Source: Henckelia pumila
Lineage: Eukaryota > Streptophyta > Magnoliopsida > Lamiales > Gesneriaceae
Length of the DNA stretch: 64,000 nucleotides
Assembly (NCBI RefSeq): GCF_033568475.1
Contig: NC_133123.1
Coordinates: 131,598,930 to 131,662,929, forward strand
Reading direction: 5' to 3'
The position numbers were made by a program, and so were the translations under genes. How positions within the stretch are numbered: the first letter of the stretch is position 1; each line of letters begins with the position of its first letter. Below, piece by piece: positions 62,600 through 64,000 of the stretch. A model generated the notes under the pieces. It saw nothing but the letters and a program-made list of their open reading frames with translations. It had not been told where the DNA came from and did no database searches.

Positions 62600-62618
62600 C
62601 ACTACAAGAAAAACGGCC

Positions 62619-62942
62619 AAAGACAACGCTTTTTTCGCGTTGTTAATGTCTCCGAAAAAGCGTTGTCGTAGCCAGTGTTGTAAAAGACCACCTAAAAGAC
62701 AACGCGAAAAAAGCGTTGTCGTTTCTGGAAAAGACAACGCTTTTTTAAGCGTTGTCGTATCTAAAAACGACAACGCTTTTTTCGCGTTGTCTTTGTCACA
62801 AAAAACGTTGTCGTTTTGAGCAAAGACAACGCATAAAAAGCGTTGTGATATTTGAAAACGACAATGCTTTTTAAGCGTTGTCTTTTTTAGTAACGACAAC
62901 GCTTTTTTCATCTATGACAACGTTTAAAAAGCGTTGTCTTTT
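62619..62942. repeat. CACTA subterminal hairpin array
   Basis: About fifteen copies of the 8-10 bp motif GACAACGC or its inverse GCGTTGTC are arranged in alternating orientation, often as hairpins around T-runs (for example GACAACGCTTTTTT facing its inverse). In CACTA elements such repeats bind the transposase-encoded protein. Confidence 0.9.
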
Positions 62943-63035
62943 CTCAAATAAAAAACAAAAAAAAATTTAATTCACAAATTTTCAATATTATCACTCAATA
63001 TTCAAAATTTTTGAAAATTAAATCTAATGTACAAT

Positions 63036-64000
63036 ATTTCAATGAATCCACGGCCTCGATCACACACTCTCGTTTATGATCTCTGAGTAGGAGTGCCCCT
63101 TCTTCCTCAGAATCTCGATCTGGAATTACCACAAAGCAAAGTCAAGAAACTCGTTATTTACGGAGTCAATCAAGAAATATGTTGTTCTTGCACAAAAAAT
63201 AAAAAGAAGATGAAAGCAGCATACAAAGACACCTGCGGTGAAAGGATACATTATCTAAATTCAAGAAACTCGTTATTTACGGGGTCTCTTTTGTCATCTT
63301 CACTCAATGAATTGTAGACAGCTAGCATGCCCAGTGACAAGACATATTATCTAAATTCAAATGGCAGAAAACGAACAAAAATTCCAAGAAAATGGAACAG
63401 TCCATGGAGGCTGTAAACCTAAAACCAAATTGGAAAAAATTGGAAGTGTATAGTACAAAAGAACCTATATGTCCTTAACCTGACCTTTTTTGATATGGTC
63501 CTAGACACGGTTCCAGTAATGCACTCCACTGTATTCTTGTAAGCAAGATCCTCACTCATCCCATTCTCGGTGTAACGTCTGAACAAGGTTTCCACAACAC
63601 CATGCACAACACCAAGTAAAATGCCTATCAATCAAACGATTAAATCAGGAATCATTAAGTCTCACAGAAATTAATCAAGACAATCATACAGTGGCATGGT
63701 GAAAGGTTAAATCCTCTGACCTCGCTCCCCAAAAATGTCACTCTTGTACTCCCGCTCCAGCATAGTTGCGAAAGTAAAAGGTGAACCAAGGGCAATAGAC
63801 CATCCAAGGGCAACATCTGTAGCTCTTCCATCCACATCCTTCAGAAGCAAAGGTCATCAGCATCCACAAAAACAAGAAACGTGAAAACCAAAACATGCCA
63901 AAAAACCCACCAGTCCACACCCAAAAAATAGAGAAATGTACACACCTGGTGGACAGCGAAACTTGAATTTATACCAGCACCATTAATTTCCTTCCCTTGC
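63036..64000 (-). pseudogene. KARI: KARI (ketol-acid reductoisomerase) 3' part, rearranged
   Basis: KARI catalyses the second step of valine, leucine and isoleucine synthesis in plastids. Three exons read cleanly with GT-AG borders: 64000-63946 (EINGAGINSSFAVHQ), 63838-63721 ([20 protein letters not shown], ending DIFGER) and 63624-63485 ([20 protein letters not shown], then [20 protein letters not shown]). The next exon starts at 63331 (GMLAVYNSLSEDDKRD), but its acceptor CAG is CTG and the exon breaks off at 63284. Only YPFTAG (63229-63248) and then IEILRKKGHSYSEIINESV (from about 63120) follow, the latter with a two-base insertion. The last recognisable codons (IEAVDSL) end near 63036. Much of the second catalytic domain and the C-terminus are missing, so this copy is not functional. 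The 5' part is beyond the window. Confidence 0.88.
63142..63360. repeat. Short duplications at KARI break points
   Basis: TCAAGAAACTCGTTATTTAC (continuing two more bases, GG) occurs at 63142-63163 and 63261-63282. ATTATCTAAATTCAA occurs at 63250-63264 and 63346-63360. The copies lie exactly at the joins between KARI pieces, like templated filler at repaired breaks. Confidence 0.85.

Follow-up and report, generated by a model that had tools for sequence, protein, structure and literature searches.

The right-hand end of the window (the whole 64,000-nt stretch analyzed, C4:131598930-131662929, in a genome total of 884,658,702 bases on 133 contigs) almost certainly belongs to a nonautonomous CACTA transposon that carries fragments of several host genes, a multigene Pack-CACTA and as such a known kind of gene shuffling. 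A preliminary description of the window had proposed a gene-capturing CACTA, and this proposal is now supported by a second terminus, a target duplication, the donor gene, and two further copies; the contrary picture, ordinary flanking genes with no second CACTA terminus, is not what the sequence to the right presents. The element, here called copy A, spans C4:131661529-131667174 (5,646 bp) with an AAA target duplication on each side. Its second terminus (CTTGTAGTG, TTTTCTTGTAGTG) lies right of the window edge: The inverted end that the preliminary description had proposed to look for was found 5.6 kb to the right, together with the 3-bp duplication. Outside the window, copy A further comprises the beginning of a TNP2 reading frame, a fragment of a NIPA-type transporter gene, a fragment of a DEAH-helicase gene, and the right terminus. 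The features are as follows, in window positions except for the last line, which counts from the left end of the element.

62597 to 62599, no strand: left target-site duplication AAA; the matching AAA lies beyond the window, at C4:131667175-131667177
62600 to 62613, plus strand: left terminal inverted repeat CACTACAAGAAAAA, 14 bp, a perfect match to the right end
62600 to 64000, no strand: in-window part of the 5,646-bp element, the remainder reaching C4:131667174
62619 to 62945 (approximate limits), no strand: subterminal repeat array of the left end, GACAACGCTTTTT units direct and inverted
62946 to 63043, no strand: backbone of the CACTA family, as far as the capture junction
63038 to 63043, no strand: 6-bp microhomology TTCAAT at the left capture junction, identical in the CACTA backbone and the KARI donor
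63038 to 63204 (right limit approximate), minus strand: KARI block 1, the start of the last exon with a 2-bp insertion, and the neighboring intron
63205 to 63222, no strand: stretch of about 18 bp separating KARI block 1 from block 2, with no confident donor match
63223 to 63250, minus strand: KARI block 2, a short exon piece (YPFTAGVF), separated from block 1 by the loss of about 95 donor bases
63251 to 63283, no strand: filler TTATCTAAATTC plus AAGAAACTCGTTATTTACGG, replacing about 320 donor bases
63284 to 64000, minus strand: KARI block 3, collinear with donor exons and introns, running on outside the window to about C4:131663030
63333, minus strand: splice acceptor CAG changed to CTG, common to all three element copies
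Element 3486 to 3552, about 67 bp: stretch adjoining the helicase fragment on its left, with no source matched

A genome search, also suggested in the preliminary description, revealed two more complete copies of the composite. Copy B (C1:43872176-43877787; 5,612 bp; TAT/TAT target duplication) aligns with copy A from end to end (K2P 0.0192 over 5,607 sites). Copy D (C4:11224130-11249250; 25.1 kb; AGA/AGA target duplication) is without the segments equivalent to positions 2825-3829, 4735-4796, and 5509-5578 of copy A, and its KARI segment is split by an insert of about 20.7 kb with two pol reading frames, presumably Ty3/gypsy-like by their motif; the insert suggests two nested retrotransposons. 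The terminal inverted repeat CACTACAAGAAAAA forms both ends of copies A and B (14 bp, perfect), and the left end of copy D has one substitution. A 3-bp target duplication thus flanks 3/3 complete copies (AAA, TAT, AGA), where the probability that any two random 3-mers from the window agree is 0.021. Comparison of 3 kb of flanking sequence per side found no similarity between copies A, B, and D in 6/6 comparisons, and the insertions are thus separate; a segmental duplication was rejected for the same lack of flank similarity and for the differing target duplications. The window by itself shows no more than would a CACTA end adjoining an unrelated KARI pseudogene or interrupting a KARI gene; the second terminus, the target duplications, the two further complete copies, and the location of the KARI gene elsewhere already refute this reading, which we consider vanishingly improbable.

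The CACTA terminus that had been placed at 62600 holds up, CACTACAAGAAAA at this position being the sole exact match within the window. With two mismatches allowed, eight other window sites match, and nine such matches were reached in 2/100 shuffles, so that only the exact match is counted. For the subterminal repeats described to its right, 10 of the 11 window matches to GACAACGCTTTTT (two mismatches or fewer) fall within 62622-62938, and shuffled windows gave a mean of 2.8 matches and reached 11 in 0/100 cases. The family is large, given that the left 30 bp of the element have 391 genome matches with up to two mismatches (213 forward and 178 reverse; 0 for the reversed-pattern control), and window positions 63000 to 63043 or 63044 are matched at at least 35 further places in the genome among the 40 of 242 candidates that were scored. 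Within copy A, CACTA backbone makes up element positions 1502-1653, 1651-1826, 3002-3485, and about 4830-5646, and is common to many relatives among the matches listed. One relative, L052, the sole one put to Pfam, encodes PF02992 (TNP2; E 5.6e-95) and the associated domain PF13963 (E 1.3e-20), and TNP2-like reading frames were judged by eye to be present in L050, L051, L053, L054, and L055 also. Element 1502-1653 corresponds to the start of the TNP2 reading frame in L052 and is retained in copies A and B; the KARI fragment thus replaces the TNP2 sequence downstream of this start. No unchanged occurrence of the TNP2 start motif was found in copy D. The ends and internal backbone come from a CACTA family that encodes TNP2 and whose termini number in the hundreds in this genome, and the terminal inverted repeat, 3-bp duplication, left subterminal repeats, and TNP2 in the family all place the element among the CACTA (En/Spm) transposons. 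As a separate observation, KARI is found in the three complete copies alone among the family of 391 matches; other members may carry different genes.

Ketol-acid reductoisomerase (KARI) is an essential enzyme of amino-acid synthesis. Its pieces are encoded on the minus strand, starting at 63038 and continuing 101 bp past the window edge; 104 joined residues match spinach KARI (1qmg) with E 8e-59, and of two short pieces put to Pfam, one gave KARI_C (E 5.3e-9) and the other nothing. The fragment begins about 95 bp past the last subterminal repeat, in agreement with the preliminary description, which had put it within 100 bp. It had also been called the 3′ region of the gene; this needs correction, as what was captured is the middle part of the gene (approximately residues 159-430 of the 524-residue 1qmg chain, placed by eye) and the last 95 or so codons are absent. 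A protein search of the genome with KARI gave 18 matches (15/15 candidates scored) in four places only: Eight in a gene at C4:6402747-6405356 (minus strand), four in copy D, and three each in copies B and A. The exon matches of this gene run in order across the query, from residue 13 to residue 503 of 505 with 47-63 unmatched, for which reason we regard it as an ordinary gene; one stop was counted in the frame of the first piece and one in that of the last. The alignment to the KARI gene of the same genome that had been proposed as a check was made, and the gene at 6.40 Mb aligns at 96-97% to the captured exons and introns; judged by this identity, it is the donor.

The same alignment bears out the retained introns, internal deletions, filler duplications, and lost splice acceptor that had been read from the window. 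The two internal deletions removed about 95 and 320 donor bases, and the 2-bp insertion in the last exon lies near 63062-63067. In the filler, TTATCTAAATTC is a copy from one donor intron and AAGAAACTCGTTATTTACGG a copy from another, with one base unlike the present donor. An intron-derived repeat at window positions 63138-63167 and 63257-63286 has G in both places where the present donor has A; either the filler would have been copied from the intron within the element, or a later change would have occurred in the donor. An independent origin as a KARI pseudogene was rejected, as the three copies have identical scars.

Two other donors were located. Element 1825-2994 matches C77:6482237-6483397 at 95.7% identity over 1,174 columns, and the captured part comprises the end of exon 1 and most of intron 1. 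The gene at this place (minus strand) matches in order what we take to be an Arabidopsis NIPA-type transporter. Its joined exons gave EamA above the Pfam cut-off (E 2.6e-7) and Mg_trans_NIPA just below it (E 9.2e-6; 25.5 vs. 26.2 bits), and Pfam found no match in three short pieces; the name NIPA rests on the near-cut-off score together with the ordered match to the Arabidopsis protein. Element 3553-4818 matches C2:181715296-181716552 at 90.3% over 1,298 columns, gaps counted. The joined pieces of this donor gene best match DHX8 in the PDB (8.8e-93), by which it is identified as encoding a DEAH helicase, DHX8/PRP22-like; in Pfam, two of four pieces gave nothing, and the others gave Helicase_C (E 1.4e-6) and HA2 (E 8.7e-11 and 8.3e-9). 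In copies A, B, and D, the captured helicase exon lacks 24 bp and then meets an in-frame stop; A has a second stop. The donor locus also contains (L056:399-1211, on C2) a short repeated coding-like stretch (GLQYLC...MRNPIGKAEFLPFPCGRFSHYT) in two neighboring reading frames. Host coding DNA from KARI, NIPA-type, and helicase genes with located donors thus lies between the ends, as in Pack-CACTA elements.

The KARI deletions, filler, 2-bp insertion, and lost acceptor are alike in copies A, B, and D, which indicates one capture followed by transposition; movement after capture is also seen in the unrelated flanks and different duplications of the three copies. The junctions bear on how the capture may have occurred. 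The left KARI junction has the 6-bp microhomology listed above, the right one about one shared base, and the right NIPA junction carries about 7 bp of filler inside TGATCAGGGAAAA; this last could be read in copies A and B alone, as D no longer has the stretch. In a search of 136,059 bases on both strands, part of the sequence fetched (in which L009 is the same DNA as copy A), the exact 13-mer TGATCAGGGAAAA turned up at the right NIPA junction of A and B; its only other occurrences there are inverted ones, in the helicase donor and in the corresponding segment of A and B. The helicase segment of D has it with one change. This suggests that the helicase piece preceded the NIPA piece or arrived together with it. 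Substitutions common to all copies relative to the donors amount, as raw counts, to 14/784 sites for KARI, 21/979 for NIPA, and 23/846 for the helicase, and the lower identity of the helicase piece may mean that the pieces came at different times.

As the route of capture we favor, with moderate confidence, gap repair with template switching rather than tandem insertion, given the microhomology and filler at the junctions and the finding of no CACTA backbone in the donor surroundings fetched. The KARI, NIPA-type transporter, and DHX8/PRP22-like helicase fragments have taken the place of most of the transposase gene. Host DNA would have been copied into breaks within the element during faulty repair, and transposase from relatives would then have moved the finished element. 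Alternatively, two CACTA insertions flanking a gene could have been mobilized jointly, which is the model set out for Pack-TYPE elements in a published account (PMC8903248) and agrees with the internal position of the host DNA between collinear backbone on either side. However, three donors on three contigs would require several rounds of such events, one of the KARI deletions holds filler copied from donor introns, and there is microhomology and filler at the junctions. CACTA backbone was also sought in the 29.7, 14, and 4.5 kb of sequence fetched around the donors and none was found there, although excision could have removed the traces. We regard this second route to the same element as a less likely one that still deserves consideration.

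Distances between copies (K2P) are 0.017-0.024 for KARI, 0.014-0.016 for NIPA, and 0.018-0.023 for the helicase, and those to the donors are 0.023-0.032, 0.029-0.031, and 0.038-0.044, respectively. At an assumed rate of 1.3e-8 substitutions per site per year, a figure for rice, copies A and B would have split roughly 0.7 million years ago and KARI would have been captured roughly 1 million years ago.

The TNP2 start and the KARI, NIPA, and helicase fragments are all on the minus strand of the element, an arrangement expected by chance one time in eight and no argument alone. RNA from this strand, beginning at the right end, would therefore be sense for KARI; the preliminary description had considered that transcripts of the minus strand could yield truncated or antisense KARI RNA, but they would not be antisense, KARI itself being minus-strand in the element. 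Splice signals are intact at several captured KARI exons, so that chimeric splicing as in the soybean element Tgm-Express1 is possible by analogy. Some Pack-CACTA members do transcribe captured exons into chimeric RNA, although this does not define the group. That the composite is an expressed and selected chimeric gene or a regulator of KARI could draw on the common strand and the surviving splice signals, but the longest ORF in copy A is 104 aa, the TNP2-KARI join is out of frame with a stop soon after in A and B, and the 2-bp insertion and lost acceptor are common to the copies. Codon changes relative to the donor, counted in four exon pieces (152 codons), are mostly nonsynonymous though few (synonymous to nonsynonymous 4:7 in A, 2:7 in B, and 2:3 in D; that is, 7/11, 7/9, and 3/5 nonsynonymous), and these few changes, donor changes included, would agree with an absence of selection. 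A selected chimeric gene or a regulator of KARI is hence very improbable in our judgment. Most likely the element is inert and without host function, giving at most a chimeric noncoding RNA, and it has no functional transposase, as in Pack-CACTA elements (no ORF above 104 aa in the scan of copy A; in D, frames of at least 150 aa only were considered). With the TNP2 start and the fragments in one orientation, one promoter at the right end could drive a single spliced chimeric RNA which, with antisense RNA or the hairpin-prone subterminal repeats, would feed the production of KARI-like small RNAs; we think this very improbable. If true, small RNAs about 97% identical to the sole KARI gene found would bring transposon silencing into conflict with the gene for an essential enzyme.

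Other features were recorded in the window. Retrotransposon gag domains of Ty3 type lie at 1-999 and 2907-3722 (minus strand), the first with a protease domain, and a Ty1/copia retrotransposon with integrase and reverse transcriptase domains at 35679-39607 (minus strand). An intronless cyclophilin reading frame of 184 aa is at 10976-11530 (minus strand; PF00160, E 8.3e-51). The plant transposon protein domain PF04827 at 19247-19747 (plus strand) probably marks a PIF/Harbinger element, and a DUF4371 fragment at 51762-52223 (plus strand) is probably hAT-like. Contigs C1-C4 (183, 201, 204, and 234 Mb) account for the bulk of the assembly and suggest four large chromosomes.

The Tpn1 family of Japanese morning glory comprises En/Spm-related, nonautonomous elements that capture host genes, and by this general description the element here is alike. 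Tgm-Express1 is a soybean CACTA of 5.7 kb with exon and intron fragments of five host genes; the element is inserted into intron 2 of F3H1, and its chimeric transcripts have been demonstrated (PMC1947982). As far as that source describes it, Tgm-Express1 resembles the present element in near-equal size (5.7 vs. 5.65 kb) and in carrying fragments of several unrelated host genes, and it differs in having five other genes with transcripts shown, whereas the element here has fragments of three genes with mapped donors and exists in three complete copies. Pack-CACTA and Pack-TYPE elements are described from Arabidopsis, rice, and maize, often with cargo from more than one locus (PMC8903248, PMC13317346). 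In these accounts, as here, CACTACAA ends, target duplications, and captured coding DNA occur with no transposase of the element's own; the published model of acquisition is tandem insertion and joint mobilization, whereas the junctions here are more like gap repair with template switching. CACTA elements of Chenopodium, in the description given in PMC8978399, likewise have subterminal repeats and host-gene fragments outside the transposase coding sequence, but the pieces described there are short (80 bp of AP2) and are located upstream of a still recognizable transposase domain, whereas most of the transposase gene is gone here. Our literature searches turned up no report of a KARI-carrying CACTA, which is weak evidence of absence.

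For genome annotation, KARI-, NIPA-, and helicase-like exons at the sites of this element are to be read as transposon cargo. The element provides an unusually complete case, with three donors, several junctions, templated filler, and three copies in one genome; as these can be read together, they allow rival models of gene capture by cut-and-paste transposons to be compared.
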